Source of the DNA: Gammaproteobacteria bacterium
GTDB lineage: Bacteria > Pseudomonadota > Gammaproteobacteria > Pseudomonadales > Pseudohongiellaceae
Assembly: GCA_009844085.1 (NCBI GenBank)
Contig: VYCF01000014.1
Span: 1-64,000 of the forward strand
Direction of reading: 5' to 3'
DNA: 64,000 nucleotides
Shown here: one piece after another, positions 19,042-37,305 of the stretch
Position numbering within the stretch: the first letter of the stretch is position 1
Layout of the letters: each line of letters begins with the position of its first letter
The notes under the pieces: generated by a model
Databases searched by the model: none
What the model was told of the DNA's origin: nothing
What the model saw: only the letters and a program-made list of their open reading frames with translations
Made by a program: the position numbers and the translations under genes

Positions 19042-19056
19042 GTTGCAAACATGAGC

Positions 19057-19190
19057 TTCGATCCGTCGCCGCCGGGTCAGGGCGAGTGCAGCGGACGCCT
19101 TAAATACATCCTTGTAGGCTTCGGGCTCGGCATCCCTGCCTCGCACGCCCGCTGCACTCGCCCTGACCCGACGGCGACTCACAGTGTGCA
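19057..19190 (+). repeat. 134-nt palindromic repeat, full copy B
   Basis: This is the reference copy. GTCGCCG (outer stem) is followed by the 18-base arm CGGGTCAGGGCGAGTGCA and GCGGACG. The 3' half answers with CGCCCGC, TGCACTCGCCCTGACCCG and CGGCGAC. The stem is about 32 bp with two mismatches. The loop holds TACATCCTTGTA and GGCATCCCTGCC. It begins 26 bases past the DUF2149 gene stop and lies upstream of the nuo promoter. Confidence 0.85.
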
Positions 19191-19216
19191 AATTCGAGGC
19201 TGATTCGCCCGAAAGA

Positions 19217-19546
19217 TCAGTTCGGTACGTAGATGATTTCGCCGGATTCGAGTTGGTAGGCCGTGCCGACGGGGCGGCCCCGCTCGCCTGTCTGTTGCCG
19301 GGATTCTTCGGCGGTGTAGGCGCGGATTTCCTCGCCTTCCTTGATGATTATTTCCATGTCTTCCTCGCCGGGATTCTTGACGAGGGTGAACTCTTCGCTG
19401 AACAGCAGTTCGCCGAGTTCGAGGTGGCTGATCAGCGCCGCCATCAGCGCCACGGAGAACACCATGGCGATATCGAACAGGTTGACGAGCGAACTCAGTG
19501 GGTCGAGTTCGTCGCTGTCGGCGATAAATGTTTCGTATCGCTTCAT
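19217..19546 (-). CDS. DUF2149 protein (HmuV-like), predicted partner of the TolQ/MotA-like channel
   Basis: This 109-residue protein has one transmembrane helix (about 20-44, LVNLFDIAMVFSVALMAALI) preceded by an acidic N-terminus. It is followed by a periplasmic segment with an IIIKEGEEIRAY strand and GTAYQLESGEIIYVPN at the end, the DUF2149 pattern. DUF2149 proteins occur beside CobN-like chelatases and MotA/TolQ/ExbB proteins, as in hmuV of Bacteroidetes heme loci. By position it may play the ExbD/TolR role. The ATG at 19546 overlaps the upstream stop (ATGA). It ends the island operon. Confidence 0.8.
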   Translation of the reverse strand: MKRYETFIADSDELDPLSSLVNLFDIAMVFSVALMAALISHLELGELLFSEEFTLVKNPGEEDMEIIIKEGEEIRAYTAEESRQQTGERGRPVGTAYQLESGEIIYVPN

Positions 19547-20157
19547 GATCGTTCCGCCTCCGACTCGGTCTTGTATTGCAGCACGAACTCCAGCCGATGC
19601 ATGCCCTGGGCGAAGCGCCGCTTGCGCGACTGATGCAGGACGAAGCCGATGCTGCCGATCACGATGCCGAGCACCGTGGTCGAAAAGGCGACCTGCATGT
19701 TCTGGGTCAGGCTGGCCATGTCTCCCGCCGCGAGGCCCGCCAATGCGGGACCCATCGGTATCAGCGTACCGATCAGTCCGAGACTCGGGCCCAGACGGAT
19801 CAGCAGTCTCGGAAAGGACAATTGATTGTCGCCGTGCAAGGCGAAGTCGCCAAGTTGGCGTTCGCGCACCGAGCGCTTCGTCATGTCTTCCATGACCGTG
19901 AGCATGTGTCCGCTCAGCGGCGAAGGGTAGCGGCCCGCGCATTCCGCGAGCCGCGTCTTGTAATCGGCAAATTCTCCGGCGACGAGCCGGCTTTCCGCGG
20001 CATCGAGCGCCTTGAGCAGGCTCAGGTCCTGCTGGCGTTGCTGCCAGTCCTGCCCGAGCAGCAGCAAGGCGCGCACGAGCAGATAGAGCAGCAGGGCGAT
20101 GCAGGGAACGAGCAGGCCCGTACTCACCCAGGTAAGCGTGGAGAAAAAACTCAACAT
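19543..20157 (-). CDS. MotA/TolQ/ExbB-type proton channel protein (HmuU-like)
   Basis: A 204-residue inner-membrane protein with helices at about 8-33, 118-143 and 149-172, separated by a long cytoplasmic loop. The second helix pair carries the family motif LGPSLGLIGTLIPMGPALAGL followed by MQVAFSTTVLGIVIG. Such proteins use the proton gradient to drive a partner, here probably the DUF2149 protein and, by inference, the CobN-like chelatase. It starts one base after the preceding stop. Confidence 0.85.
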   Translation of the reverse strand: MLSFFSTLTWVSTGLLVPCIALLLYLLVRALLLLGQDWQQRQQDLSLLKALDAAESRLVAGEFADYKTRLAECAGRYPSPLSGHMLTVMEDMTKRSVRERQLGDFALHGDNQLSFPRLLIRLGPSLGLIGTLIPMGPALAGLAAGDMASLTQNMQVAFSTTVLGIVIGSIGFVLHQSRKRRFAQGMHRLEFVLQYKTESEAERS

Positions 20158-20158
20158 G

Positions 20159-20857
20159 TCAGGCTCTCAACCTCGCCCTGGCGCTTCTGTCGCGCAGATT
20201 TTGCCACGAATATCCAATCAGAATCAGGACGAGCAGGATGCCGGGCGCCTGGACGGCACTTTCCAGCGTGATCCATTCATAGCCCTGGAAGTAGCCGGCC
20301 CAGCTTGTATCGGTGGCGTACAGCCATTGCAGGATCAGCAACAGGCAGGCGAGAAAGCGCGCGGCCGGCAGCCTGCGGGCGAGATCGATCCGCCCCAGCG
20401 CGAAAATCAACCCGGGCAGCGCGAGCAACAGGGCCGCGGCGTAAAGCATGCCGAGCCGCGAGAATTCGATGCCCAGCGCCTGGTAGAACAGCCACAGTTG
20501 CAGGCTGAGCGCGGCCGGCAGCAGCAACAGCAAGGCGCCGTACATCCGCCCGTGCAGCAACAGGCCGAGCGCCTGCAGACTCAGCACGACGCCGATCGGT
20601 CTTGACCAGAATTCAAGCGTGGCCAGCCAGACGGTCACGCTCTGGCCGCTTAGCCACTGCGACAGCCACAGCGCCGCGCAAGCGAGCGTCGCCGGAATCA
20701 GCGCAAGGCCGAATCCCAGCGCCACAGGCGGCGGGCAATAGCGCTGCACCAGCTTATTGCGGCCGAAAAACGACTGTTGCCGCGGCGGCCAGGCGAGCAA
20801 GGCGCAGCAGCAGCCGAGTCCCAGGCTGAGCGCCCACCAGGACGCGGCTTCGCTCAT
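20159..20857 (-). CDS. Polytopic membrane protein of unknown function (HmuT-like position)
   Basis: A 232-residue integral membrane protein with about six or seven hydrophobic segments and no recognisable catalytic motif. It opens with SWWALSLGLGCCCALLAW and ends in a basic tail (RDRSARARLRA). It lies between the chelatase and the TolQ-like gene with gaps of 5 and 1 bases, so it belongs to the same operon. Its place matches hmuT of the Bacteroidetes hmu loci, but I assign the relationship by position and topology, not by a clear motif. Confidence 0.6.
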   Translation of the reverse strand: MSEAASWWALSLGLGCCCALLAWPPRQQSFFGRNKLVQRYCPPPVALGFGLALIPATLACAALWLSQWLSGQSVTVWLATLEFWSRPIGVVLSLQALGLLLHGRMYGALLLLLPAALSLQLWLFYQALGIEFSRLGMLYAAALLLALPGLIFALGRIDLARRLPAARFLACLLLILQWLYATDTSWAGYFQGYEWITLESAVQAPGILLVLILIGYSWQNLRDRSARARLRA

Positions 20858-20862
20858 GCCCG

Positions 20863-23800
20863 TTAGGCTGCCGCCGGCCGCGAGCGCCGCCAGCGTGCAA
20901 ATGTCAACAGCGCAGTCAGCGCGAGGCCGATGCCGAGCAGGATCAGCGCCAGGTTACGGCCCGCCACGAGTTGCGGCTGCGCCGCCTCATTGCGCGTCGT
21001 TAATTCCGCCTCGGTAGCCTGTTCGCCGTTTTCCGCCTGCACATCCTGTTCTCGCAGCACGAGTTCCGCGCTTTGCTCGACCGAGCCGACTTCCGCCGCT
21101 TCGATCTGCTGCTGGTAGCTGGCGAGCAGGGTCGGGTCGAGTCGCTCGGAGATGAAGTCCTGCAACGCCGCGTTGCCGCAGGTAAAACTACCGCAGCCGG
21201 CTTCGAAGCGGCTGACAAGGTCTGCGTGCAGATCGACCAGCGCCTGCATCTGTTCGGCGGTCGGGGTCCAGAAATCCTTGCGGGCGGCTTCGAGCATGAC
21301 GCCGGTCACTTCCTGCAGGGCGTAGGGATTTTCGGTTTCGAAAAAGTCATTCAAGCCCAACGCGTGCTTGTCGTCGATCAGCGTTTCGTGGACCTGGTTC
21401 CAGAATCCCGATGCGATGGCGGCGGGTTTCATTGTGTTCCAGCCGAAGGAGTTGCGCAGGGTCTCGGCCATTACTTCGGCGCTCGACGCCTCTCCGGCCG
21501 TCAGGCCTTCGAGATAGCGCGGGTTAAACAGCGTGGTCCTGGCTTCCTGGGCGATCGCGCTTTGCAGCGTTTCCATCTTCGCCCGGTTGGGATTGCGGTA
21601 ATCGGAGAAATACGCCTCCGCGTCCTTGCCCGTGACCGAACGCACCGCCAGGCTCAGCCCGCCCATGAATTCGTAGACGTGATCAAGGCTGAGGCCGCCC
21701 CAGGTGTTGCTGGACCTGGGCTGGATGACGACGTCGGTATTAAGCAGCGCGGCGGTGAACAGTTCCGGCACGAACTCGCCCCATTCGTCGGATTCGCCGT
21801 ACATCGCGCCCATGTTATAGAGATACTGGCTGGCGACGTCGGCGTCCGATTCCCAGGTGTCGCCCTGCTCCACCATGCCCATGATCTGCGTGCCATAAGA
21901 TCCGTTGACGCCGCCGAAGCTGCGGCGCGTCGACAATCGCCGCGCCTCCGCGGGCGGCAGGCCCCGATCGAGCAGGTGCTGTTCGGCGAGGCGCACGCCA
22001 TCGCGGACAAAGTTGTCGTCCTGGTCGACCGCCAGCGCCGCCATTTCCACCGCGCGGTTGATCAGCGCCAGCCGCGAGGCAGCCAGGTCGCGCAACTGGC
22101 CCGCGCTTTGCACCACGACGTCGATGCGCGGCCGGCCAAGTTCTTCGGCGGGAATGAGTTCGAGCAACTGTACCTGCCCGTTGGGCGCCCACACCGGGGC
22201 GATGCCGAGCAGATACATCACCTGGGCGACCGTGGCGCCCTGGGAATGGATGAATTCGCTCGGCCAGAGCGTGAAACTTACCTTGTTCGGCAGGCGGCCA
22301 TGCCGTTCCCGGTAGTCGCGCAGCATGTCGTCGGCGAGTGCCTTGCCGACTTCCCACGCAGCCTGGGAAGGCGTCTGCTCGGCATCAATCGAAAACATGT
22401 TGCGCCCGGTCGGCAGTGCGTCGGGATTGAGCAGCGGGTCGCCGCCCGAGGCCGGCGAGACGTATCCGCCGGAGACGGCGTTGCCGAGCGCGACTTTCTG
22501 GTCGGCGCCGCCGGCGAGCAGCAGGTCCGTGTAATTGTCGTACAGCGAAAGCGTCTCAAGCAGGCCGGGTTCGTAATCGAAAGCCAGCGAATCGACGAGC
22601 CCGCCCGGCGTCGCGCCCTCGTTCAGTTCTGCGAACAGCACCTCGGCGCCGGAAGCCGCGCGCACGGGTTCGGGCAGCAGGTTTTTCACCGAATCGATCA
22701 GCATCAACTCGGCCGTCAGCGCGGCGTCCGCATCGGCCCAGGTATCGCCCCAGGTGTACAGGCCCTTGTTGATGCTCGCCTGGGCGAGATCGTCAAGGTA
22801 CAACTCGAGTTTCGGCAACACGTCATTGTCCCAGCCCGGCGCATCGGCCAGGTCGGTTTCGAGATCGACGTGCAATTCCATATCCGTCGCCAGTTCGATG
22901 ATTTGCCGCCGCTGCTCCTCGCGCACCTGGCCCTCCGTTAGGCGATAGTCGTCGAGCCAGCGTCCGAGCGTGGCGAGTTCGGAATACAGGCCGGCGCGCT
23001 GGAAGGGCGGCGTCAGGTGGTTGATGATCGTAGCGTATGAGCGACGCTTGGCGATGATCGCCTCGCCGACGTTGCTCATCGTATAGATGTAAAAATGCGG
23101 CGTATTGCCGATCAGCGCATCGGCCCAGTCATTGGCCGACAGCGCGACCTGCTTGCCCTGGGTGAATTCGAGGCTGCCGTGGGTGCCGTAGTGGACGATG
23201 GCGTCGGCGCCGAAGCCATGGCGCATCCACAGATAGGCCGCCACGTAGCTGTGCGGCGGCGCCTCGCCGGTGCCGTGCACCATGCGGAAATTGTCTTCGC
23301 CGAAGCCAGCCAGCGGTTGCGGCATCAGCGCGACGTTGCCGAATTCGAGCCGCGGCACGGCGATGCGGCTTTCACCATCCTGTGGCGCATCGACCAGAAA
23401 GCGGCCGAGGTTGCCGCCGTGGCGCTCATCTACCCGGGCGCAGACGCCCGCCGCAAGCTCCTCCCGGCACCACTGCCGGTACTCTCCTGCGGATACCCAC
23501 GCGGGATTCTGTTCGTCGAGGAAACGCCGCGCCTGTCCCATGCCGTCAGGCGTCAGCACCGGGCCTTCGACGTCGAGCCGCGCGCGGAACGCGGCATAAT
23601 CGTCCGGCAGGTCGCCGAGGTCGTAGCCCTGTTCCTTGAGCATGTGCAAGGTATTGAACAGCGAAGGACTGACTTCCAGCCCGCCGGCGACCAGTGCGTT
23701 CTTGCCCGGACCGCGGAAATAGACAATGCCGATGCGTTTCTCGGCGTTGGCCGTGCGCTTGAGCCCGATCCAGCGTTCGACCATTTCGACGTATTCATCG

Positions 23801-24822
23801 AGCCGCTCGGGAATAGCCTCGAAGATGCGAAAGCCGCGCTCATCGGCGAATTGCGCGTTGACCACCCGCGGCGCAACGCCGCCGTCGAGTTCGGGCAGGA
23901 CGACGTTCATGGTGAGCATTCCGCCCGCGTATCCCTGTGGGTCTTCGAGCCATTCCTGGTGTTCCTCGAACACCGACAGCGGCGTCAGCAGCGGTACCTG
24001 GTTTTCGCTGAACCAGTTGGCCACGGCGTTTTCCCGGCCGAAATTGAAACGCCCGTGGGGCATGAGCACTACCGCGTCGGGATTGACCTCGGCGACGAGC
24101 GCGAGCCGCTCCGCCTGGCCGTTGATGGGATACACGCGCATGCCCGCGCCTTCAAAGGCCTCAATCATTGCGTTCAGGTGATCGCGGTTGGCGTTGAACG
24201 GGCCCGGCACCGTGGTGATCAACGCGATCTTGTAGCCGTCGGGATTGTAGTTCGGCACGGTTTCGTAGAATCGCTGGTAATCCTCCACCGTGGTGAACAC
24301 TTCGTCGCCGAGGTAGAACAGCACGTCGGTATCGATCAGCAGCGGGTCGCCGGCCTCGGGAGACCGCCACAACTTGCCGTCGAGTTCGCGGCGCACGTAG
24401 TACCAGAAATTGCGGTAGTTGTAGTCGCCGCCGTTATCGACATAGGTCCGCGCCAATTCGCCCGCGTCAGGGTCGAGGCTCGTGAGTTGCACGTGGTTGG
24501 GATTGGTGGGGCTGTCGATGAAAATGGCGCTGCCGGATTGTACGGCTTCGTCGATCCAGGCCAATTGTTCGCCGTCGAGCGCGAGACCGCGGCCGAAAAT
24601 CATCACGAAGTCGAAATCCCGCGCGCGTTCGAGCGCCCCGACTTCGAGGCGCTCGAAACGGAACTGCGGCATGTCGGCTACCGCCTTGATGACGCGGCTG
24701 GCGGTGAAATCCGCAAAACTGACCAGCGCGACGCGGGTCGGCGCCGCATAGCGCTGATACGAGAAGAACAGCGCCAGCGCGAGCGTCGCGAGTATTACTG
24801 CAGGGACGGCGAATCTTTTCAT
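20863..24822 (-). CDS. Membrane-anchored CobN/ChlH/HmuS-like chelatase
   Basis: A 1319-residue protein of the CobN/BchH/ChlH class. Core motifs are HYGTHGSLEF (544-553), YTMSNVGEAIIAKRR, NHLTPPFQRAG and, later, GRPRIDVVVQSAGQLRDLAASR. Unlike soluble CobN it has a hydrophobic anchor at each end (about residues 4-21 and 1288-1310), so the catalytic body probably faces the periplasm. No CobS/CobT or ChlI/ChlD ATPase partner is nearby; a proton-channel pair follows instead. This architecture matches HmuS, reported in Bacteroidetes to remove iron from heme. I infer metal removal from an imported tetrapyrrole. Cobaltochelation for cobalamin synthesis is the weaker alternative. Confidence 0.85.
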   Translation of the reverse strand: MKRFAVPAVILATLALALFFSYQRYAAPTRVALVSFADFTASRVIKAVADMPQFRFERLEVGALERARDFDFVMIFGRGLALDGEQLAWIDEAVQSGSAIFIDSPTNPNHVQLTSLDPDAGELARTYVDNGGDYNYRNFWYYVRRELDGKLWRSPEAGDPLLIDTDVLFYLGDEVFTTVEDYQRFYETVPNYNPDGYKIALITTVPGPFNANRDHLNAMIEAFEGAGMRVYPINGQAERLALVAEVNPDAVVLMPHGRFNFGRENAVANWFSENQVPLLTPLSVFEEHQEWLEDPQGYAGGMLTMNVVLPELDGGVAPRVVNAQFADERGFRIFEAIPERLDEYVEMVERWIGLKRTANAEKRIGIVYFRGPGKNALVAGGLEVSPSLFNTLHMLKEQGYDLGDLPDDYAAFRARLDVEGPVLTPDGMGQARRFLDEQNPAWVSAGEYRQWCREELAAGVCARVDERHGGNLGRFLVDAPQDGESRIAVPRLEFGNVALMPQPLAGFGEDNFRMVHGTGEAPPHSYVAAYLWMRHGFGADAIVHYGTHGSLEFTQGKQVALSANDWADALIGNTPHFYIYTMSNVGEAIIAKRRSYATIINHLTPPFQRAGLYSELATLGRWLDDYRLTEGQVREEQRRQIIELATDMELHVDLETDLADAPGWDNDVLPKLELYLDDLAQASINKGLYTWGDTWADADAALTAELMLIDSVKNLLPEPVRAASGAEVLFAELNEGATPGGLVDSLAFDYEPGLLETLSLYDNYTDLLLAGGADQKVALGNAVSGGYVSPASGGDPLLNPDALPTGRNMFSIDAEQTPSQAAWEVGKALADDMLRDYRERHGRLPNKVSFTLWPSEFIHSQGATVAQVMYLLGIAPVWAPNGQVQLLELIPAEELGRPRIDVVVQSAGQLRDLAASRLALINRAVEMAALAVDQDDNFVRDGVRLAEQHLLDRGLPPAEARRLSTRRSFGGVNGSYGTQIMGMVEQGDTWESDADVASQYLYNMGAMYGESDEWGEFVPELFTAALLNTDVVIQPRSSNTWGGLSLDHVYEFMGGLSLAVRSVTGKDAEAYFSDYRNPNRAKMETLQSAIAQEARTTLFNPRYLEGLTAGEASSAEVMAETLRNSFGWNTMKPAAIASGFWNQVHETLIDDKHALGLNDFFETENPYALQEVTGVMLEAARKDFWTPTAEQMQALVDLHADLVSRFEAGCGSFTCGNAALQDFISERLDPTLLASYQQQIEAAEVGSVEQSAELVLREQDVQAENGEQATEAELTTRNEAAQPQLVAGRNLALILLGIGLALTALLTFARWRRSRPAAA

Positions 24823-24833
24823 GACGGATGCTC

Positions 24834-27011
24834 CTACATGCCGAATCGATAGCGGGCCGAGACGGAGAAGGTCCTGCCCGGCGCGGCGGCGCCGTCAGGG
24901 TCGTCGCTGATGCCCGAACCCGCGACGAATTGCGGCCAGTACTGTTCGTCGAACAGGTTGTCGATCCTGAAATTCAGGCTGAAGCTGTCGGAGAAGTCGT
25001 AAAAAAGGCTGGCGTCGACGCGCGTGTAGTCAGGCACGACGAAACTGCCCGGCTCGACATTGGCAAATTCGTCCACCAGCAGGGCCTGCAGGTTGGCGCC
25101 GAAATTGGCAGCAGCGGAGCGGTAGCCGAGTCCGAGTATCGTCTGCCGCGGGCCGACGCTGGTCAGCGGTTCGTCGCTCGAGCGATTTTCGCCTTCGATG
25201 TCGCTCCAACTCAGGCTCAGCAGCCATTCGTCCTCGGTGTCCAGCCAGTTGTGCAGATACAGTTCGGCGTCGATTTCAGCTCCGCTTACTTCCACCTCGC
25301 TCAGATTCTGATACTGGATCTGCGTCACGGAACGGAACCCGGGAATCGGGTTCGGGCGCCTGCCGGAACGCGTGCTCTCGATGAAGTCCTCGTAGTCGGT
25401 GTTGTAAGTCGAGATTTCGAATCTGCCGATCTCGCCGCGCAGCCGCAGGCCGACCTCGATGCCGTTGCTCTTTTCCGACTTCAGATCGGGATTGGCGAGC
25501 ACTTCGTGCGGGAACCAGCGGCTCTGGATGAAGGTGTTGATGTATTGCGAAGACACCGGCGGCGCGCGGAATCCGCTGACGTAGTTGCCGAACAGGATCA
25601 GGTTGTCGTTCGCTTCCCAGGTCACGCCCAGGCTCGGCGAGACGCTTTCGCTGCTGAAGGCGCCGACGCTGATTCCGGTGGGATTCGAATTGAAGTACAA
25701 CTCATCGGGCTGCGGGTCGTTCTTGAAGTAGTCGTAGCGTAGGCCCAGCGTGATCCGCAGCCGGTCTTCCACCAGGCTCAATTCGTCCTGGACGAAAACG
25801 CCGAGCAGGTCGGTATCACTGGAAGGATAGCTCTTGAGCGGGTAGACGACGCCATTGCGCGCCGGATCGACCACGCCGGTGTCCGGGTAGAAATCCCGGT
25901 AGTAATTGAGGCGTGCGGCGGACTTGCGCACGAAATCGACCCCGGCCAGCAGTTCGTGGTTCGAGAACTCCTCGCCGATCAACACGCTGGCCGAAACCAG
26001 ATCCTGGTCGATGTCGACCTCTTCTATGTCGATTACGTTCTCGCCGCCACGGGACACGCTTTCTTCGAATTCGTCCTCGTCGATGCGACCCTGCTGCAGA
26101 TCGACCTGCCAGTCGAGCCGGTCCAGCCCCATGACGTCGGTCAGGTTCTGGTAAAAGCCGATGCGCCAGCGGTGGCTCTGGTCCTGCTCGTAGTGGTCGG
26201 TAACCGACGTTCCCGGAGGGAGGGCGGAGTTGTAGTTGACGTCCACGCTGCGGCGCCAGAAATCCGCCAGGAAGCCGTATTCGTTGTCTGAATTGCCGTC
26301 ATTCTCCCACTTCAGCAACACGTTTTCCTGGTTGCCGTCGAAGGGGTGATTCTCGTAGTCGCCGTAGATCTCGGTTTCGGAGAATTGCCGCGTGGAAACC
26401 TGCAGCAGATACGCCCCGCCGAGTGCCGCGCCGGCGCCGCTGAAGGTCTGCCGGAAGCCGTCGTTGACCTGGTCATAGCCGCCGCCCACTTCGAATACCG
26501 AATCGTCGCCGCCGCCGAGCATCTGCCGCGGCGAAATCGTGTTCAGCAACACCACGCCGGCGAGCGCGTCGCTGCCGTAGAGCGCCGAAGACGGCCCCTT
26601 GAGGAACTGGATGTTGTTCATCGAATAGGGTTCGAAACTGTTGCGGCCATTGGAGACGCCGGCGGAACCGAATCCGTCGGGCAGCCGCGTGCCGTCGATC
26701 AGCATCACCACGCGATTGCCGGACAGGCCGCGGATGACGAAGGTGCCGTTGCCGCGCCGGTCGCTGGACTGGTCGATACTGATTGCCGGCTGGTAGCGGA
26801 CGAGGTCCGCCAGGCTGTTCGGCTGCAATTCCTGTATATCCTGCTCATCCAGCACTTCCAGGCTTGCCGGCGTGCTCCAGAGGGAGGTTTCCTTCCGCTG
26901 CACCTGGACAACGATTTCTTCGACCTGTTCTTGTGCGATCGCAAGTTCCGCGCCTGCAAAGGCGGAGATTGCCAACGGAATGGTCCAACCGTATTTTCGC
27001 TTCATACTCAT
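24834..27011 (-). CDS. TonB-dependent outer-membrane receptor, heme type (HmuR-like)
   Basis: A 725-residue receptor with a signal peptide ending AELAIAQ, a TonB box (EEIVVQV), a plug domain (RGLSGNRVVMLIDGTRLPDG, LKGPSSALYGSDALAGVV) and a 22-strand barrel ending in Phe-Gly-Met. Two boxes typical of heme receptors are present, FRAP (481-484) and NPDL (507-510). A histidine (His502) lies between them, where heme receptors place a ligand. The ATG at 27011 was chosen over ATG 27005 and an upstream start. It is 11 bases from the chelatase gene, so receptor and chelatase are co-transcribed. Confidence 0.88.
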   Translation of the reverse strand: MSMKRKYGWTIPLAISAFAGAELAIAQEQVEEIVVQVQRKETSLWSTPASLEVLDEQDIQELQPNSLADLVRYQPAISIDQSSDRRGNGTFVIRGLSGNRVVMLIDGTRLPDGFGSAGVSNGRNSFEPYSMNNIQFLKGPSSALYGSDALAGVVLLNTISPRQMLGGGDDSVFEVGGGYDQVNDGFRQTFSGAGAALGGAYLLQVSTRQFSETEIYGDYENHPFDGNQENVLLKWENDGNSDNEYGFLADFWRRSVDVNYNSALPPGTSVTDHYEQDQSHRWRIGFYQNLTDVMGLDRLDWQVDLQQGRIDEDEFEESVSRGGENVIDIEEVDIDQDLVSASVLIGEEFSNHELLAGVDFVRKSAARLNYYRDFYPDTGVVDPARNGVVYPLKSYPSSDTDLLGVFVQDELSLVEDRLRITLGLRYDYFKNDPQPDELYFNSNPTGISVGAFSSESVSPSLGVTWEANDNLILFGNYVSGFRAPPVSSQYINTFIQSRWFPHEVLANPDLKSEKSNGIEVGLRLRGEIGRFEISTYNTDYEDFIESTRSGRRPNPIPGFRSVTQIQYQNLSEVEVSGAEIDAELYLHNWLDTEDEWLLSLSWSDIEGENRSSDEPLTSVGPRQTILGLGYRSAAANFGANLQALLVDEFANVEPGSFVVPDYTRVDASLFYDFSDSFSLNFRIDNLFDEQYWPQFVAGSGISDDPDGAAAPGRTFSVSARYRFGM

Positions 27012-27055
27012 GAGATAGTTACCTGACTTGTTCTTTCGCAAGTGAATGCACGCCG

Positions 27056-27072
27056 CCGCATCGAAGATGCGG
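27056..27072 (-). promoter_or_regulatory. Leader hairpin before the heme-type receptor gene
   Basis: CCGCATC and GATGCGG form a perfect 7-bp stem with a 3-base loop between the small His/Cys gene and the receptor. No T-run follows, so it is more likely an RNA stability or processing element than a terminator. Confidence 0.35.
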
Positions 27073-27100
27073 ACGATCGTGCCGGTTCGAAAATGGTCAG

Positions 27101-27421
27101 TTAACTGCGGGGTGGAGAACGGGACCGCGCCAGGGGGACTTCGACCGACTGGGGAGTCAGCGAGGCGCGGTCGAATGTCTGGTCAATCGGGAGTCGAACC
27201 GAATCGAGTTCACGGGATTGCGTGAAATCTTCGTCCTGGCCGAACTTGAGGCAGATATTGCAATCGAGATGCGCTTCGGGCTCGCCGTCATGGCTATCGT
27301 GGCTGCCATGGCTGTGTGCGAGGTCATAGCCGATCGAGACAAGCAGCAACAGGGAAAGCACGGCCATCGATTTGAGATGGCCAGCCAGGGATTTCCCAAT
27401 GCCTGCTATAGATATTCGCAT
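27101..27421 (-). CDS. Small His/Cys-rich envelope protein, DUF2946-like
   Basis: A 106-residue protein with an N-terminal hydrophobic helix (about 18-33), a histidine-rich segment (HSHGSHDSHD, then HLDCNICLKF with a CxxC motif) and a proline/serine/arginine tail (RSRSPPRS). The layout resembles DUF2946-type proteins found next to metal-linked TonB receptors. It is the first gene after a strong promoter and precedes the heme-type receptor by 89 bases. A metal-sensing or metal-binding periplasmic role is inference. The gene at 37306-37602 has the same layout and the same position before a receptor. Confidence 0.65.
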   Translation of the reverse strand: MRISIAGIGKSLAGHLKSMAVLSLLLLVSIGYDLAHSHGSHDSHDGEPEAHLDCNICLKFGQDEDFTQSRELDSVRLPIDQTFDRASLTPQSVEVPLARSRSPPRS

Positions 27422-27464
27422 TGCAAACCGCTATCCCGACCGTGCATTTGAAGCGAACCGGTCG

Positions 27465-27493
27465 AGTATCCGGACAAGCCCGCACCTTGTCAA
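27465..27493 (-). promoter_or_regulatory. Strong sigma70-type promoter for the hmu-like operon
   Basis: On the minus strand a perfect TTGACA -35 box (27493-27488) is separated by 17 bases from GATACT (27470-27465). Transcription would start near 27458, about 37 bases before the small His/Cys gene. I see no clear Fur box over it. Confidence 0.65.
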
Positions 27494-27519
27494 GTTGGCG
27501 CAGTGCAGTTGTCGAGTTT

Positions 27520-27936
27520 TCAATTGTCTTGCCTGGACTCGTCCGCGGCGTGGCAATCGCGTTGTCGACACAGCGTAAAATTGCGCACATGTGCGTACGC
27601 GATGATCGTTGCGCCCGCTACGGTCAGAATCTTCTCACCGAGCTCTCCCGTTACCTCTTCACCGAGTATCGGCACGAGAAAAAGAACCAGGAGACCTGAC
27701 AAGCCGATAACGAGAATATCGAAACCGCGGTGCTTGCGGCAGCCAAGGGTCAGGGCAAACAGGCTGGTTGGAAGCACGAGGAAGAGAACCGCGTAGTGGA
27801 AAGTCTCGTCTTCCAGGAAAGTCGCTCCCAGCGCCGGAATCATGGCGATGGCCACAGGCGTGAGCAGGCAATGGATTACGCAAACCAGCGATAGTCCGAT
27901 GGCTGCCCTGTCCGCGTTTGTCGACGACACCTGCAT
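27520..27936 (-). CDS. MerC-domain membrane protein
   Basis: A 138-residue protein with four predicted helices and the MerC signature: an early DRAAIGLSLVCVIHCLLTPV with paired cysteines, and GCRKHRG between helices 2 and 3. MerC proteins carry mercuric ions across the inner membrane, but many MerC-domain genes lie outside mer operons. Here no merA, merR, merT or merP is visible, so transport of another soft metal is equally possible. The ATG at 27936 has AGGAG 7 bases upstream. It follows the last ABC permease by about 30 bases. Confidence 0.75.
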   Translation of the reverse strand: MQVSSTNADRAAIGLSLVCVIHCLLTPVAIAMIPALGATFLEDETFHYAVLFLVLPTSLFALTLGCRKHRGFDILVIGLSGLLVLFLVPILGEEVTGELGEKILTVAGATIIAYAHVRNFTLCRQRDCHAADESRQDN

Positions 27937-27965
27937 TATCCGGCTCCTGAACTCCTGACATTCAA

Positions 27966-29408
27966 TCAATCATTGATGGGACTGACCGAGCGCAACTGTC
28001 TGTTCGCAAGCGACATCATACCGATGGATAGCAAAATCAGGAAAATCATCGGCGCCATCTCGCGACTCATTCTCGCGCGAAGCGGTACGCCGGCAAACCG
28101 GAATTCCGGGATGGCCTGATAAAACCCGGAATCGATCGGCTGCTTGGCGACGATGTTCGGGCCGACGAGTTCCGCGTAGTCGGCCTTGAAATTTCGCGCC
28201 TGGGTCAGGTAGTCCTGATGCCTGCGGGCTGAAGTTCCGGCGAGTTCATTGAACAGGCCGTGGGCGGCAACTGCGGGCGAAAGAAAGCGGAAAAGCCCGA
28301 TCGCGCTTTCTCGGCTTTGCAGCGCCGATTCGAAGTCATCGACGATGGGCCGGGTCGCCTCGTCCACGGTCGAGGTCACCAGAAAAGCGGATTGGACAAA
28401 GGCCGGAATCTCCGACTCCTGATTGACCAATAACTCCGGGTGGTCAAGCATGAACTGGTTCGCCACATCGGCCTCGGCAAGCCGGGTTTCGTTTTCGACT
28501 TCCCTGGCGTCGGCCAGATAGGCCAGGCGCGAGGGCGTCGGATACAGCGCCTCCGCCGTCGCACTGGTGGCCGCGGGAACAACCAGCGTGAGCCCGGCCC
28601 ACAAGCCGAGCAGCGCCAACACATTGAACTCGCCGCTCTTGTTGGCGCTGGCGACCCAGGCAATGAGCATCAACCAGAAGAACCCGTAAGCCAGCACAAG
28701 CAGCGACCAGAAAGCGAAGGCCGGTAAACGCTCGCCAAGACCTGCCCCGCCAGGTCCCGATGAGAGTCCGGAGGCCAGCACGTACAAGGCGGCGGCGAAA
28801 GTCACGAGCAGCACGACAGCCGCGCGGAACAGCAAACGCTGCCAGAAAAGGCGTTTCACGCTCACGCCCTGGGCCACGGCGAGGCCGAGTCTCCCGGCAT
28901 CCCGATCCGCGGCGATCACGTCAAAGCAGAATACGATCAGCAGCAGCGGCAGGAACAGGATTACCGCCTTGCTGATGTCGAAACCGCCGAGGGCCAATGA
29001 AACCGGGTCGGCGAATTCGTAATTCGAGAACAGGCGGATGTCCGGGTCCCATAGCGAAATCTCACCCAGAAAGGGCATCAGATCCGATTGGCCAACGGCA
29101 AAGTCCGCCAGCGGCGCCTGGGGCAGCGACGAAGCAAATGACACATCCATGGCCGAGCCAGTCGCCGGCGGCACTTCCGCGGCACTGCCAAGCCGTTCCA
29201 ACTCGCGCAGGTCCGCCAGCCATTCGTCCATCGCTTCTGCGATTTCCGCATGGTGGCCGGCAATCGCCGCGGCGCGGTCATCGCGCTCGGTCTTGCCCGC
29301 CAGACCCCCGTAAACCAGCACCGCGGCAAAGGCCAGCAGCAACAGCAGTGAAGAGATGCGCTGAAATTGCATCTTCGATTCGCAGGCGATGAGATCCGTC
29401 ATTCGCAT
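27966..29408 (-). CDS. ABC transporter permease, DUF3526 type (triad 2, second permease)
   Basis: A 480-residue ABC-2-like permease. It has an N-terminal helix, a large extracytoplasmic domain (about 40-145), a cluster of five helices (about 145-290), a second extracytoplasmic domain and a last helix (MIFLILLSIGMMSLAN). The FDVIAADRDAGRLGLAVAQG segment corresponds to the coupling region with the ATPase. It sits 9 bases after the previous permease. Cargo unknown; the two periplasmic domains suggest action on a periplasmic or outer-membrane substrate. Confidence 0.8.
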   Translation of the reverse strand: MRMTDLIACESKMQFQRISSLLLLLAFAAVLVYGGLAGKTERDDRAAAIAGHHAEIAEAMDEWLADLRELERLGSAAEVPPATGSAMDVSFASSLPQAPLADFAVGQSDLMPFLGEISLWDPDIRLFSNYEFADPVSLALGGFDISKAVILFLPLLLIVFCFDVIAADRDAGRLGLAVAQGVSVKRLFWQRLLFRAAVVLLVTFAAALYVLASGLSSGPGGAGLGERLPAFAFWSLLVLAYGFFWLMLIAWVASANKSGEFNVLALLGLWAGLTLVVPAATSATAEALYPTPSRLAYLADAREVENETRLAEADVANQFMLDHPELLVNQESEIPAFVQSAFLVTSTVDEATRPIVDDFESALQSRESAIGLFRFLSPAVAAHGLFNELAGTSARRHQDYLTQARNFKADYAELVGPNIVAKQPIDSGFYQAIPEFRFAGVPLRARMSREMAPMIFLILLSIGMMSLANRQLRSVSPIND

Positions 29409-29417
29409 TAAAGCACC

Positions 29418-30854
29418 TCACACCCTGACTCGATTGCCGCCGAACCAGAACATGGCTGCCACGGCGGCAAGTCCCCAAAGCAGCAATATCGTCAGGTCCC
29501 GGATACCCTCGCTCCAGGCCAGGGCAACAGAAGGCGGCCGGTAGTCGAACTCCGGCACCGATTCCCAGAATTCCGGAGGCGCCAGGTAGCCGAAACTCTC
29601 ACCGGCGCCATTGAGCAGCATGTCTTCGTTCATCGCCCGCACGATATTGTTGCGCTGGATTTCGGCTTCCACGGAAAAATGTTCGTGAGCGCTTACATCG
29701 GTTCCCGAGAGCGTCCGGGAAAGATGCTGCAAGGCGATCGCCGGCGAGAAAATGGAAAGCATCTGGCGCAGGTTCTTCTGCCTCTCATAGTTGGCGAACA
29801 GTTCAGCGTAAGCCGCGTTGTAGGCTTCCGTATCGATCACTTCGCTCACTTCCAGACGCAATGCGCCGCGGTTGATCTCCAGGTCATCGAGCTCGCCTTC
29901 GCGCAACTCCCTGCCCAGGGCGCGTTCAACGACTTCCCGCTCCACGGCGACGTAGTCTTCACTATCGCTCGGAGGCCGATTGGCCTGCAGGCTGGCCCGA
30001 GTGTCTTCCCAGAAACTTGCCGAATCCGGGCTGGGATACACTTGCTCGGCAATGCTCGCAGAAAGGCGCGGCAATCCGACCACGGTCACCACCCAGATCC
30101 CGAGCAAGAGCAGCAAGGCTGTTCTCGCCTCGGCAACCAGCAGGGAAACGAGCAGCGTGAGGGCGGTCAGGCATACGATGTAAAGCCCGTACACCAGAAG
30201 CAGCGAGAGGCCGCGCAGCGCCAGGTCGCCACCGGAATAGCCGGATTCCGACAGCGAAAGCAGGGAGAAGGTCGTCGAAATTGCCACCGCGGCCGCCAGC
30301 ACGGCAAAGCCCACTCCGGCGATGACCGTAAATTTGCCAAGCAGAAGCCGAGTCGGGCTTGCGCCGGACCCAACGAGTTGCCGCAGGGTGCCTCGCTCCC
30401 GCTCGCCGGCGATGCTGCCATATCCCAGCAGCACGACAAGCAGCGGCAGGATGAGCGTCAGGACACCCGCGATACTGAAGTTTTCGAGCCTGCTGAGCCC
30501 GGGAGCATCTTCAGCGGCACGGAACATGGCTGGATTGCGGGAATGCGCTTCGAGCCAGATGACTTGCCCCATGTAGGCGGCTACTCCAGGATCGAAGGAG
30601 GCAAGGGGCGCCACCGGCTTGTGCGCCATGCGGCTGAAATGCGCGGCGGAGTGCGGGTTTTTCTCACCCTGCTCCAGGAACACCGCGGCATCGTCGGCCT
30701 GGGCCTGCAGGACTTCCCGCTCTCTCGCATTCTCGGTTGCAAGGCCGGTAGTCAATCCAAGCACGAGCAGCAGCCCGACGATGCCCAGCAAGCCCAGGGC
30801 CCGGCCGTCGCGTCTTATCTCTGTCAACTCTTTACCGATAATTGCGCCGATCAT
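29418..30854 (-). CDS. ABC transporter permease, DUF3526 type (triad 2, first permease)
   Basis: A 478-residue permease with the same helix plan as its neighbour. The coupling segment is GYGSIAGERERGTLRQLVGSG, the ABC-2 equivalent of an EAA loop. A large periplasmic domain between helices 1 and 2 includes FDPGVAAYMGQVIWLEAHSRN, close to the FDPGVDSVTGQSIFLEGHRQN-like stretch of the permease at 32832, showing the triads are duplicates. The ATG at 30854 is preferred; a GTG directly before it overlaps the ATPase stop. Confidence 0.82.
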   Translation of the reverse strand: MIGAIIGKELTEIRRDGRALGLLGIVGLLLVLGLTTGLATENAREREVLQAQADDAAVFLEQGEKNPHSAAHFSRMAHKPVAPLASFDPGVAAYMGQVIWLEAHSRNPAMFRAAEDAPGLSRLENFSIAGVLTLILPLLVVLLGYGSIAGERERGTLRQLVGSGASPTRLLLGKFTVIAGVGFAVLAAAVAISTTFSLLSLSESGYSGGDLALRGLSLLLVYGLYIVCLTALTLLVSLLVAEARTALLLLLGIWVVTVVGLPRLSASIAEQVYPSPDSASFWEDTRASLQANRPPSDSEDYVAVEREVVERALGRELREGELDDLEINRGALRLEVSEVIDTEAYNAAYAELFANYERQKNLRQMLSIFSPAIALQHLSRTLSGTDVSAHEHFSVEAEIQRNNIVRAMNEDMLLNGAGESFGYLAPPEFWESVPEFDYRPPSVALAWSEGIRDLTILLLWGLAAVAAMFWFGGNRVRV

Positions 30855-30856
30855 CA

Positions 30857-31588
30857 CTACGCCTCCTCGACTGTTTCGTCGTCGTGCATGTGATTGAGGT
30901 AGATCTGCTCAAGCGCGGCCTGGTCCAGGGATTCCGGCGAAAGCACTTCCACCAGCGTCCCGGATTTCATGATGCCGATGCGGTCGGCGAGTTCCCTGGC
31001 CCGGAACAGGTCATGGGTTGCCATCAGCACCGCCGCGCCGTTGTCGGCAAGCTGCCGCAGCAGCCGGCAGAATTCGTTCGCGGCGCTGGGGTCCAGGCCG
31101 GAAAGCGGTTCGTCGAGCAACAGCGCCCTGGCGCCCTTGGCCAGCGCGATCGCAAGCCCGATCTTCTGCCTCATGCCCTTGGAATACGCGCCGACTTTCT
31201 GATCCGCGGCGCCCTGATCCAGCCCAACCTGATCGAGCAGTCCGCGGAGATGGCTTTCATCGCGATGCCCGCCGCCGAGCTTGACGAAATAGTCGAGATT
31301 CTCCAGGCCCGTCAAGGTCGGATACAGCGACACCTGCTCGGGCACATAGCCGAGTTTGCTTCGCGCCCGCTTCAGGTCGGCGGTCACTTCGGTTCCATCA
31401 ACGATGGCGGCGCCCGAAGTCGGTTCGAGAAACCCGAGAAAAAGGTTTATCGTCGTCGTCTTGCCCGCGCCGTTGGCGCCGAGCAGGCAGACGATCTCCT
31501 TCTCGTTTACCGAAAGATTCAAGCCATTGAGCGCCGTATTTGACCGGAACGCCTTGGTCAGATCCTTGGCGCGAAGCAGTTCGCTCAT
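30857..31588 (-). CDS. ABC transporter ATP-binding protein (triad 2)
   Basis: A 243-residue nucleotide-binding subunit with Walker A (LLGANGAGKTTT), the signature helix YSKGMRQKIGLA in place of LSGGQ as in NatA/CcmA-type ABC-2 exporters, Walker B (LLLDEPLSGLDP) and the H-loop MATHD. Its ATG overlaps the stop of the upstream permease (ATGA), so the triads are translationally linked. Confidence 0.92.
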   Translation of the reverse strand: MSELLRAKDLTKAFRSNTALNGLNLSVNEKEIVCLLGANGAGKTTTINLFLGFLEPTSGAAIVDGTEVTADLKRARSKLGYVPEQVSLYPTLTGLENLDYFVKLGGGHRDESHLRGLLDQVGLDQGAADQKVGAYSKGMRQKIGLAIALAKGARALLLDEPLSGLDPSAANEFCRLLRQLADNGAAVLMATHDLFRARELADRIGIMKSGTLVEVLSPESLDQAALEQIYLNHMHDDETVEEA

Positions 31589-32835
31589 GATTCTTTTCCT
31601 CGGAATTGCGGCCGCTGTTGGAGGCTGACGGTTGAGACAGGCTCCCCGCGAAACAGGCGCGGGTAGTAGTACTCTCTCAGCGCCTTGTGGAAAGCGCGCA
31701 CTCGCTGTTCATAGGTCAGGGTCGCCGCCACATTGGTATCGGCAAGCGCCTGCATTGCGCGCTCGGCCAGTGCCGGCGGCGACAGCCAGGCAAGCGAACC
31801 CGCCAATCTGTCCCGTCTGATGCGGCCATCACGATAAGCCTGCGACAGAGGTTCGACAGTCTGGTCGCCGACCTGTTGAAAGGCGTAATACCACTTCCAC
31901 TCGAATGGCTGGCTGACTTCGGTGTAATCCGCCCATTCCGGATGACGCTCGATAAATGGTTCCATCGTTGCGGCTTTGGGCAGATCCCAGGCGTCGTTGA
32001 CCGCCTCTCTCTGGGTAAGCAGGATTTCACCGCCATCCGGCAGTGGCACAATCGACTCGACCGAAATCTTGATTGCCGCCGGAACGATCACGGCAAACGC
32101 CAGCCAGACGCCGACCAGCGCGGTGAGATTGACCGGGCTGCTCCAGCCGTAACGGTCGACCAGCGCACACACGCCCCACCAGAACGCGATGTGCAATATC
32201 ACCACGAGGCTTGCCGGAACCAGGGTCGATGCGCCGGCCCCGCCAAGCAGACCGCCGGCCCAGAGTGGACCGATCAGGCATATCGTCAACGCGCCCACGC
32301 GCAAGGCCGCCCGGGCGAACCAGGGGCTCCCCTGACTTGCCGCGGTCGCGCTGAGCAATTCATAGCGGCCCGCGGTGCGCTCGGCGGAGCGCAGGTCGTG
32401 CAACAGGAGAATCAGCAACAGCGGGGCGAGCAGATTCGCTGCGAATGCGAAGTCGAAGCGGCCGATCAGGGCGAAGTCCGGGTTTTCCGCGTCTGTCTCG
32501 TAAATCTGCCCTTCCAGCGCCAGTGCGCGAATCTGGTGCTTCCAGGGAGAAGTGTCGCGTTGGCCCAGCGCGGCGAAAGCAAAATCCGACGGCGAATCCC
32601 AGGTGAGGTGAAATGTGTAATACGCCACATCGCCCCAGTCCTGGTACAGCGTGTCGAGGACTTCCCGTTCCGCGCTATCGATTTCGATCAATTCGTTCAG
32701 GACCACACGTTGCGTGGCGATTTCACGCAGGCCGAGGACTACCGACACACAAGCCACAAGCAGCGCGATTCCCAGCCAGAGCAAAGCCGCCCGGTCACTC
32801 GCGAGAAAGCGGATTTCGCGGACCAGTCCGCTCAT
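31585..32835 (-). CDS. ABC transporter permease, DUF3526 type (triad 1, second permease)
   Basis: A 416-residue membrane protein with an N-terminal helix (about 14-38), a periplasmic domain, a five-helix group with LLLILLLHDLRSAERTAGRYELL as coupling segment, and a long C-terminal extracytoplasmic region ending without an obvious last helix. That makes it shorter than the other three permeases by about 60 residues. Its start overlaps the previous gene's stop. Confidence 0.78.
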   Translation of the reverse strand: MSGLVREIRFLASDRAALLWLGIALLVACVSVVLGLREIATQRVVLNELIEIDSAEREVLDTLYQDWGDVAYYTFHLTWDSPSDFAFAALGQRDTSPWKHQIRALALEGQIYETDAENPDFALIGRFDFAFAANLLAPLLLILLLHDLRSAERTAGRYELLSATAASQGSPWFARAALRVGALTICLIGPLWAGGLLGGAGASTLVPASLVVILHIAFWWGVCALVDRYGWSSPVNLTALVGVWLAFAVIVPAAIKISVESIVPLPDGGEILLTQREAVNDAWDLPKAATMEPFIERHPEWADYTEVSQPFEWKWYYAFQQVGDQTVEPLSQAYRDGRIRRDRLAGSLAWLSPPALAERAMQALADTNVAATLTYEQRVRAFHKALREYYYPRLFRGEPVSTVSLQQRPQFRGKES

Positions 32836-34274
32836 GGCTGCATTCTTCGCGCAGCGCCGACGCCGCCGGCCGTCAGCAACAGCAACCAGGCGGACAGCAT
32901 GCCCAGGGGCGTGCCGGCGCGAGCCAGGCGTTCATCGGCGGCAGCGGGCTGGAAGGAAAACTCGTCGAGGACGTTCCAGTTTTCGGCTGACATTCTCGTG
33001 CGACGATTGGCTTCTTCGTTAAGACTGCGATTGATGTCGTCGTTATAGGCGAGTTGCTCGGCATGGACGCGATTAAGGCCCTGCACGAAATCGAAGCGCA
33101 CGTCCTCCGCTTCACGCAGGAAACGATGGTGCGTCGCAAGATCGGTACCCGACAGCGCGCGGGAGCCCGCGGAAACCGCCACTACCGGCGAAAGCCAGCC
33201 GAAAGATTCGGCAAATCGCGCCTGGCGCACTTCAAATTCCATGCGTTCTTCGGCAAACCGGTTCATCACCTCGGTCACATCGGCTTCCGCAACTTCGGAG
33301 ACGACGCCGCGAAAATTGACCGGCAGGTCTTCCACGCGCTCCACATCGTATTGGACAAGCAGATTCGCCCGAAGCTGCATGAACTGCGGAGCGCCGGCAT
33401 TGTGGCCGTCGCCGACTTCCCGCAATTCCGCCTGCATGCGCAGGTCGGTCTCGATTTTGCCTGGCGCGGGCATGGCCGAAACGGCGGATTCAACCGCCAT
33501 CCGCGGAACGATCAGGGCGGAGGCGAGCCAGAACAGCGCCAGAATGCCGAGCGAGAGTGCGCGCGAGCGGACCATGGCCGAAACCAGCAGAATCAGTCCG
33601 CACCAGACGAACAGATAGAGCGCGTAAAGACCAATGACGCCGAAGCTCGCCAGCAGCGTCTCACCCCTGACGACAGCCGCGGCCGACACTATCGCCAGCG
33701 GCAACAGCAGCGCCAGCGTGACTCCCGCCAGGGCAATCCATTTGCCTGCGTACAATTCGTTCCCGGTCACGCCCTGGGCCAGCAGCGGCGCAAGCGTGTT
33801 CTCTTCGCGCTCGCGAATGAATACGCCATGGCCGATGGCGATCAGCAGCAGCGGCACGAACAATTGATAAACCAGTGCCGCGGTCAGCCCCTCGAAGCCG
33901 CCGAGGTCGGCGCCCGCCCTCGCATCGGCGAACATTGCCGTGTTTTGCCGGTGGCCTTCCAGAAAAATCGATTGCCCGGTGACCGAGTCGACGCCGGGGT
34001 CGATCATCGCCAGCGGCGGAGGCGTACGGAAAACATAATGCCCGTAATGCACCATCCTGTGCGGATGGCGGTCCGGCTGGGACAGGAAGGTCTCTTCCGC
34101 CAGCGCCTGCTGTTCGGAGCGTTCCCGATGTTCTTCGCTCATCCGCAGTGAGGTTGCGATGCTGACGGCTGCCAGCAACACAGCGAAAATCAGCAAGGCA
34201 AATAATGCGAGCCGCGATCTCAGCCACAGCCGCGACTCTTCCCGCGCGATCGAAAGTACATTGCTCATCGTCAT
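32832..34274 (-). CDS. ABC transporter permease, DUF3526 type (triad 1, first permease)
   Basis: A 480-residue permease paralogous to the one at 29418. Shared parts are the IDPGVDSVTGQSIFLEGHRQ periplasmic segment, the coupling loop HGVFIREREENTLAPLLAQG and a C-terminal helix. Conserved extracytoplasmic repeats include FGWLSPVVAVSAGSRALSGTDLATHHRF. The ATG overlaps the ATPase stop (ATGA); a second in-frame ATG lies two codons on. Confidence 0.82.
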   Translation of the reverse strand: MTMSNVLSIAREESRLWLRSRLALFALLIFAVLLAAVSIATSLRMSEEHRERSEQQALAEETFLSQPDRHPHRMVHYGHYVFRTPPPLAMIDPGVDSVTGQSIFLEGHRQNTAMFADARAGADLGGFEGLTAALVYQLFVPLLLIAIGHGVFIREREENTLAPLLAQGVTGNELYAGKWIALAGVTLALLLPLAIVSAAAVVRGETLLASFGVIGLYALYLFVWCGLILLVSAMVRSRALSLGILALFWLASALIVPRMAVESAVSAMPAPGKIETDLRMQAELREVGDGHNAGAPQFMQLRANLLVQYDVERVEDLPVNFRGVVSEVAEADVTEVMNRFAEERMEFEVRQARFAESFGWLSPVVAVSAGSRALSGTDLATHHRFLREAEDVRFDFVQGLNRVHAEQLAYNDDINRSLNEEANRRTRMSAENWNVLDEFSFQPAAADERLARAGTPLGMLSAWLLLLTAGGVGAARRMQP

Positions 34275-34993
34275 GCTCCCGCGTGTTGGGCAAAGGCGAC
34301 ATGGACCGCCTCGGTATCGATCCGGTCCATGCCGGCCGGCCGGTCGAAGGCGCCGACAAGTACGCCGTTCTGCAACAGGTCGATGCGGTCGGCCACATGG
34401 CAGGCGCCGTAGACATCGTGGGTGACCAGCAGAATGGTTCGGCCGGCCTCGGCCAGATCCCTGGCCAACCGGTTGAACTCGTCGATCGCCACGGGGTCGA
34501 GACCCGAGGTCGGCTCGTCCAATAGCAGGATCGGCGTATCCCGCAGGATTGCCAGGGCGATCGCCACCTTCTGACGCATGCCCTTGGAGTAGGTTTCCAT
34601 TCGCATGTTTCGGGCTTCGGGTTGCAATGCCACCCGGTCCAGGGCGTCATCCAGCGCTTTCCGGCCGGTATCCGTGCCCGCCAGCGAAAGGAAATAGTGG
34701 AGATTTTCGTAGGCGCTCAAATGTCCATACAAGGTGGCCGCCTCGGGCAGGTAGGCGATGGCCTGCCGGGCGGCGCTGACATTTTCGCTTACGTCGCGCC
34801 CCTGAACATGCACATTTCCCGACGCCGGCGCAAGGAAGCCGAGAAAGGTCAGCAAGGTGGTTGACTTGCCGGCGCCGTTACCTCCCAGCAAGGCATGAAT
34901 CTCCCCTTGCTTGATGCTGAAGGAGACGTCCTTCAGCACTTCCTGGCCGGAGCGCATTACGCTGAGAGACTGAGCTGCGAGCATGGAAATCAT
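34271..34993 (-). CDS. ABC transporter ATP-binding protein (triad 1)
   Basis: A 240-residue ATPase with Walker A (LLGGNGAGKSTT), the signature YSKGMRQKVAIA, Walker B (LLLDEPTSGLDP) and the H-loop VTHDV. It closely parallels the second ATPase of the island. The ATG at 34993 has AGGAG at good spacing; the longer frame upstream runs into the receptor gene and is shadow. It begins 19 bases after the siderophore-type receptor stop, so receptor and exporter are probably one transcript. Confidence 0.92.
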   Translation of the reverse strand: MISMLAAQSLSVMRSGQEVLKDVSFSIKQGEIHALLGGNGAGKSTTLLTFLGFLAPASGNVHVQGRDVSENVSAARQAIAYLPEAATLYGHLSAYENLHYFLSLAGTDTGRKALDDALDRVALQPEARNMRMETYSKGMRQKVAIALAILRDTPILLLDEPTSGLDPVAIDEFNRLARDLAEAGRTILLVTHDVYGACHVADRIDLLQNGVLVGAFDRPAGMDRIDTEAVHVAFAQHAGA

Positions 34994-35012
34994 TTGAACT
35001 CCTGAATCGAGG

Positions 35013-37214: not shown

Positions 37215-37305
37215 TTGTTGCCTCAATCCGTAAACGTTTGAAATGCTGCAAAGACAACTGCGCGGAGTGCGCAGAAGCTCGTGGTAGTGCGAAAATCAAA
37301 GCGTT

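Follow-up and report, generated by a model that had tools for sequence, protein, structure and literature searches.

Does a five-gene block in a gammaproteobacterium, with a TonB-dependent receptor followed by a CobN-like protein, encode a system that takes the metal out of heme? The block lies on the minus strand of the window, our term for the whole 64,000-nucleotide stretch of DNA that was analyzed. The complete hmu operon has been reported only from Bacteroidota, the divergent exceptions carrying a cobalamin riboswitch (PMC10100974), and heme de-chelation was directly demonstrated only in 2025. In Bacteroides thetaiotaomicron, HmuS turns heme into protoporphyrin and Fe(II), with His538 as an essential residue (PMC12583661). 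We conclude that the block probably belongs to a divergent HmuS-type heme utilization module. The features on which this reading rests are as follows.

19043-31595, no strand assigned: stretch absent as a whole in genus-mate G760, flanks kept (comparison with G760)
19217-19546, minus strand: DUF2149 protein, single membrane helix, HmuV-like (Pfam; 49-52% identical to Bacteroidota HmuV)
19543-20157, minus strand: MotA/TolQ/ExbB-type channel, HmuU-like (Pfam MotA_ExbB; 32-38% identical to Bacteroidota HmuU)
20159-20857, minus strand: polytopic protein of the inner membrane, 232 aa, placed where HmuT would be (roughly 6-7 hydrophobic helices)
20863-24822, minus strand: HmuS-type class I de-chelatase (predicted), CobN-like, 1319 aa (Pfam CobN 926 bits; HmuS 9d26 1023 bits)
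24834-27041, minus strand: TonB-dependent receptor, PhuR-like heme/hemoglobin type (TIGR01785, TIGR01786 and PhuR match)
27101-27421, minus strand: small His/Cys-rich exported-type protein (in three of four loci)
27520-27930, minus strand: membrane protein of the MerC family with an approximate start (three of the four loci have it)
27966-29408, minus strand: ABC-2/DUF3526 permease ABCp1 (accompanies the module at each of the four loci)
29418-30857, minus strand: ABC-2/DUF3526 permease ABCp2 (accompanies the module at each of the four loci)
30857-31588, minus strand: ABC ATPase ABCa1 (accompanies the module at each of the four loci; shares 51% identity with the ATPase near Aureibacter hmu)
31585-37602, minus strand: second cassette with a small ORF, a second TonB-dependent receptor, an ABC ATPase and two permeases (neighboring context)

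The five genes from the receptor to the DUF2149 gene are colinear, as a first-pass annotation of this DNA had described: all are on the minus strand, and the gaps 3' of the receptor measure 11, 5, 1 and -4 bases, the last being an ATGA overlap. The receptor has 735 aa when read from the TTG at 27041, and the ATG at 27011 is the likelier start. Pfam recognizes a plug and barrel in the receptor, CobN-Mg_chel (926 bits), MotA_ExbB and DUF2149 in the block, and neither the polytopic protein nor the small His/Cys-rich one has a match. The upstream edge that had been placed at 27421 did not hold. The gene chain runs on through MerC and the ABC-transporter genes to at least 31588, and probably to 37602, so that the unit begins farther upstream than 27421. 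Upstream of the operon, an 823-aa protein (37642-40113) has no Pfam match, and its DNA is without a counterpart at the matching place in G760.

A gene-neighborhood survey, which had been suggested along with the first annotation, found relatives of the block in three other metagenome-assembled genomes (MAGs), the genus-mates G295, G741 and G742; these loci are L057 (HmuS 96% identical), L058 (88%) and L059 (70%). The block is not a chance arrangement, since it recurs at these identities. With a profile built from seven HmuS sequences, the HmuS cassette was found in 4 of 84 genomes of the genus. Across a phylum sample of 398 genomes a score in the HmuS range was reached solely in the window's own genome (1313 bits for the best piece), the next best being 596 bits for a protein that lacks the HmuS motif, and a class-wide search with a single HmuS protein gave only distant matches elsewhere. 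We looked for the habitat of the related MAGs and found none.

The 1319-aa protein is, on the sequence comparisons made here, a predicted HmuS-type de-chelatase and not a cobaltochelatase. In a search against solved structures its best relative was HmuS (9d26) with 1023 bits, ahead of the other solved relatives by a factor of three (CobN and ChlH, about 345-360 bits). An alignment of 26 class I chelatases gave 39-45% identity to three Bacteroidota hmu-operon proteins and 25-27% to CobN, BchH and CobN-like proteins, which are all the aligned proteins beyond its own genus cluster and the Bacteroidota HmuS. In a 41-row tree, made by a quick method with a midpoint root and with several rows partial, the four gammaproteobacterial proteins and the three operonic Bacteroidota HmuS form one clade (SH-aLRT 100, stem 1.29), apart from CobN, BchH and the CobN-like proteins frequent among gammaproteobacteria. 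The motif LSLDHVYEFMGG is present in all seven proteins of this clade and in none of the 34 other chelatases. Hydrophobic anchor segments lie at both ends of the protein (4-22 and 1291-1309), and the sampled Sphingobium CobN and Thiodictyon BchH are without them.

The Pfam CobN-Mg_chel domain would also suit a subunit of cobalamin synthesis (CobN) or of bacteriochlorophyll synthesis (BchH). This reading is already contradicted and retains next to no probability, because every equivalog model for CobN and BchH falls well short of its cut-off (the best CobN model reaches 636 of the 1248 bits needed), the tree and the anchors point elsewhere, and no CobT was found in the four cassette genomes, the window's own among them; we rejected it on these grounds. 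The window's own genome has a single CobN-family gene. No cobalamin riboswitch was found in the window or at the loci L057-L060 by a search that found two at a Trichlorobacter locus, and control of the block by such a riboswitch was rejected as well. The result that the first-pass annotation had set against its own reading, a chelatase inside the true cobaltochelatases accompanied by CobT, is contrary to both the tree and the CobT search, and its claim of an HmuS-type chelatase thus gains from the 9d26 match, the clade with operonic HmuS and the lack of CobT and riboswitch. Its other refuting result, ligand data that would give the receptor a non-tetrapyrrole substrate, was not encountered either.

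The active-site residues were compared in the numbering of B. thetaiotaomicron HmuS (PMC12583661), the window pocket being assessed by alignment alone. By this measure the predicted chemistry site is intact, the second heme site lacks one ligand, and the predicted propionate patch is altered. Catalytic His538 and Glu577 are kept as His548 and Glu587; His1209, Asp1208 and Glu1212 as His1048, Asp1047 and Glu1051; and loop-I Phe502 and His506 as Phe512 and His516. The His254-Gly-Arg motif is also kept, with His254 at His256. The H(F)G(T/A)HG motif that contains His538 reads HYGTHG in three of the four gammaproteobacterial proteins (Phe to Tyr) and HFGTHG in L059, and the LSLDHxxEFMGG motif of His1209 and Glu1212 occurs in the window protein as LSLDHVYEFMGG.

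Other positions have changed. The head/neck heme ligand Met79 is Arg78 in the window protein; Aureibacter, which has a full hmu operon, also has Arg there, so Met79 is not universal in the HmuS clade. Gln299 is replaced by Met, likewise in Aureibacter, and since Met is usual at this position in CobN proteins too, it is probably ancestral and not a compensating ligand. The four gammaproteobacterial proteins all have Pro for Ser1014, Ala for Ser1067 and Ser for Gln1198, replacements that none of the three Bacteroidota proteins shows; three of the five predicted propionate contacts are thus substituted, with Trp1202 and Ser1199 kept. The Met-rich insertion of domain IV was not found in the alignment of the window protein, where the region has 85 residues and 1 Met, compared with 150-339 residues and 8-31 Met in the three Bacteroidota HmuS. 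Met79, the Met-rich insertion and Ser1014/Ser1067/Gln1198 have all been published as conserved in HmuS. We have filed the window protein as a sister branch of HmuS rather than a standard member because two published family-defining features, Met79 and the Met-rich insertion, are lacking. These two hallmarks therefore vary within the clade, and both axial histidines do not.

The altered positions also bear on what the substrate might be. The module could demetallate a tetrapyrrole other than protoheme, such as a chlorophyll derivative or another metalloporphyrin, for its metal or its ring, as the replaced Met79 ligand and the three propionate residues that distinguish the gammaproteobacterial from the Bacteroidota proteins would suggest; however, the propionate contacts in HmuS come from docking (PMC12583661), no change is seen in Trp1202, Ser1199 or any catalytic residue, and the receptor is of heme type, and we consider this rather unlikely. 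A pocket re-tuned for a non-protoheme tetrapyrrole, or for one without two free propionates, in a branch whose ABC-2/DUF3526 transporter carries porphyrin or metal through the inner membrane, is a possibility to which we give fairly little weight. It would, if true, be a new type of tetrapyrrole-salvage system.

The receptor can be classed from its sequence as a heme/hemoglobin type and not as an HmuR ortholog. It passes the curated heme-receptor cut-offs of TIGR01785 (326.5, cut-off 316.85) and TIGR01786 (344.9, cut-off 323.75), and its best solved relative is PhuR, with 184 bits from the single sequence and 235 bits from a four-sequence profile, compared with about 69 bits for ShuA and about 51 for BtuB. 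The FRAP and NPDL boxes with a His between them, noted earlier, are present at 491-494 and 517-520 around His512; four relatives all have His512 and NPDL, and two of them have FRTP in place of FRAP. Identity to the receptors of three Bacteroidota hmu operons is 18-21%. Of the earlier "HmuR" label, the heme-type TonB-dependent receptor survives, on the TIGR cut-offs and the PhuR match, and the orthology does not. Because two unrelated heme-type receptors pair with the same enzyme family, we infer that heme or a heme-like ring is the ligand, the strongest independent hint of this kind.

Among the partner proteins, the DUF2149 and ExbB-like proteins are readily related to Bacteroidota HmuV and HmuU by the identities listed above. 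The polytopic protein matches HmuT in position, size and helix number, but the profile comparison with HmuT gives a probability of 3% (E 0.014), and its structure prediction is a poor model (pLDDT 47). It is a candidate HmuT by position, not recognizable as HmuT by sequence; of the HmuS-T-U-V set first proposed, homology is supported for S, U and V. No HmuY-like gene adjoins the receptor in the window or in L057-L059, in agreement with the earlier observation. The small His/Cys protein, said to take the leading place instead, is present, as is MerC, in three of the four loci and is missing from the fourth, so it does not consistently stand in for HmuY.

In each of the four loci the block is accompanied by genes for an ABC ATPase and two DUF3526 permeases, which lie downstream of it in L059 and upstream in the other three. 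The hmu operon of Aureibacter also has an ABC ATPase with a pair of DUF3526 permeases next to it, together with a DUF4374 gene and a receptor, and that ATPase is 51% identical to ABCa1 of the window and 41% to the neighboring paralog ABCa2. The published HmuS model includes no such transporter, and a literature search found no papers on DUF3526 together with TonB-dependent receptors. This conserved partner is a concrete candidate for the route that porphyrin or iron takes after release.

Comparison with G760 sets the limits of the unit. A window stretch of 12.5 kb (about 19043-31595) is absent there as a whole, and the flanking nuoA and second receptor/ABC cassette are kept. Since exactly that stretch is missing, ABCa1-ABCp2-ABCp1-MerC-His/Cys-receptor-S-T-U-V is the unit gained or lost, and the cassette, patchily distributed, is gained or lost as one. 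The second cassette (31585-37602) abuts the HmuS cassette by an ATGA overlap, is paralogous to it and is kept in G760 without it; no HmuS partner was seen for its receptor. At the edge of the stretch absent in G760, between nuoA and the DUF2149 gene, lies an inverted repeat (19065-19178; 33-nt arms, 48-nt spacer, 94% complementary, folding z-score -8.6) that is single copy in the window, and G760 has a short hairpin there. In GC and GC3 the receptor gene and the genes from HmuS to DUF2149 resemble the neighboring nuo genes, so base composition is uninformative on recent transfer, and because the Bacteroidota HmuS set consists of three sequences we claim no donor or direction.

Which metal is recovered was approached through gene content and regulatory sites. 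The four cassette genomes have no FeoB C-terminal domain, and neither a PF01126 heme oxygenase nor HemS was found in a search covering those two types; ferrochelatase is present. Since these genomes are MAGs (the window's own is 97% complete), such absences are suggestive, not absolute. No Fur or Zur box at the window locus scored above shuffles. A Zur-box-like palindrome, GATATGTTATATTATCACATCAA, stands before the receptor gene in L059 (4816-4838) and matches 18 of 23 positions, compared with at most 15 in shuffles; that locus has 49% GC and lies beside a 23S-5S rRNA end. In other gammaproteobacterial CobN-like modules, a strong Fur-like site is seen in one and Zur-like sites in the other (L052, 4080-4104, and L044, 7983-8010), and metal control of the wider CobN-like family therefore differs between lineages.

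The L059 palindrome, the lack of FeoB, a related module inside a Runella nickel-hydrogenase cluster, and the same gene kinds (receptor, CobN-like, ExbD-like, DUF2149) in PA1922-PA1925 of Pseudomonas aeruginosa, a listed member of the Zur regulon (PMC9431628), would fit a module for acquiring zinc or another metal. We regard this as improbable. The sampled gammaproteobacterial CobN-like proteins of that architecture (PA1923 itself being outside the alignment) are about 26% identical, fall in another clade and lack the HmuS motif, a scan of the window's entire own genome at two mismatches finds no Zur-type pattern, and the receptor is of heme type. The identity of the metal is nevertheless less certain, given this palindrome and the similarly built modules elsewhere that are linked to zinc, nickel or corrinoids.

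For the HmuS-type heme module we counted the catalytic residues with LSLDHVYEFMGG, the receptor type, the lack of PF01126 and HemS, and the conserved ABC partner. Against it we counted Met79 to Arg, the missing Met-rich insertion and the three substituted contacts, the lack of FeoB to take up Fe(II), the lack of a Fur box at the locus, the Zur-like site in L059 and the unrecognizable HmuT. On balance the module most likely removes iron from heme in the periplasm, by analogy with the characterized enzyme, with ring and metal both candidates. Import and demetallation of heme or another tetrapyrrole without HmuY, as first proposed, is supported at the sequence level by the kinship with HmuS, the heme-type receptor and the lack of an HmuY-like gene. 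The PhuR-like receptor would, from its family, bring heme to the periplasm, where HmuS, anchored in the inner membrane at both ends, would grip the tetrapyrrole between His548 and His1048 and, like the B. thetaiotaomicron enzyme, free the metal, which is most likely Fe(II), and leave protoporphyrin behind. Energy from the proton-motive force probably reaches HmuS or the receptor through the ExbB-like and DUF2149 proteins. The ABC-2/DUF3526 transporter probably handles porphyrin or released iron at the inner membrane, which is the weakest step, and the ferrochelatase encoded in the genome could put metal back into free porphyrin. These results suggest that the removal of iron from heme as an iron source is not confined to Bacteroidota, and that an S-U-V core is able to pair with other receptors and move between lineages.

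PhuR in P. aeruginosa works with the cytosolic Phu pathway. The window receptor matches PhuR (PDB 8the) over nearly its full length, yet the window genome differs from the PhuR system in having neither a HemS/PhuS-type protein nor a heme oxygenase. PA1922-PA1925-type modules, Zur-regulated in P. aeruginosa (PMC9431628), share the receptor, CobN-like, ExbB/D-type and DUF2149 genes, but the sampled proteins differ as described above and lack LSLDHxxEFMGG, and no T-position gene stands beside the ExbB-like gene in the loci examined. On a Runella slithyformis plasmid (L095, 1089-9123), receptor, urease-accessory-like, MotA, DUF2149 and CobN-like genes are embedded in a hyp cluster for hydrogenase maturation, and this setting suggests that the module is a relative linked to nickel. 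A corrinoid-linked version of the architecture is found on a Trichlorobacter lovleyi plasmid (L064, 2146-10558), where two cobalamin riboswitches precede receptor-DUF2162-MotA-DUF2149-CobN beside bzaF.

The hmu operon of Aureibacter tunicatorum plasmid pAT2 (L060/L099) encodes the closest named HmuS outside the genus (45%). It is like the window in Arg at Met79, Met at Gln299 and the orthologous ABC ATPase with two DUF3526 permeases nearby; unlike the window, this Bacteroidota operon has HmuY and another receptor, and its HmuS keeps the three propionate-contact residues and has a long insertion in domain IV. With hmuYRSTUV of B. thetaiotaomicron (PMC12583661, PMC10100974) the window has in common the order receptor-S-T-U-V, the HmuU- and HmuV-like proteins and, in HmuS, both axial histidines, their carboxylate partners, HGR, LSLDHxxEFMGG and the anchors at both ends. 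It differs in having no HmuY, a receptor of another family, a T protein not recognizable as HmuT, Arg for Met79, no Met-rich insertion, three changed propionate contacts predicted in HmuS, a linked ABC-2/DUF3526 transporter and a gammaproteobacterial host.
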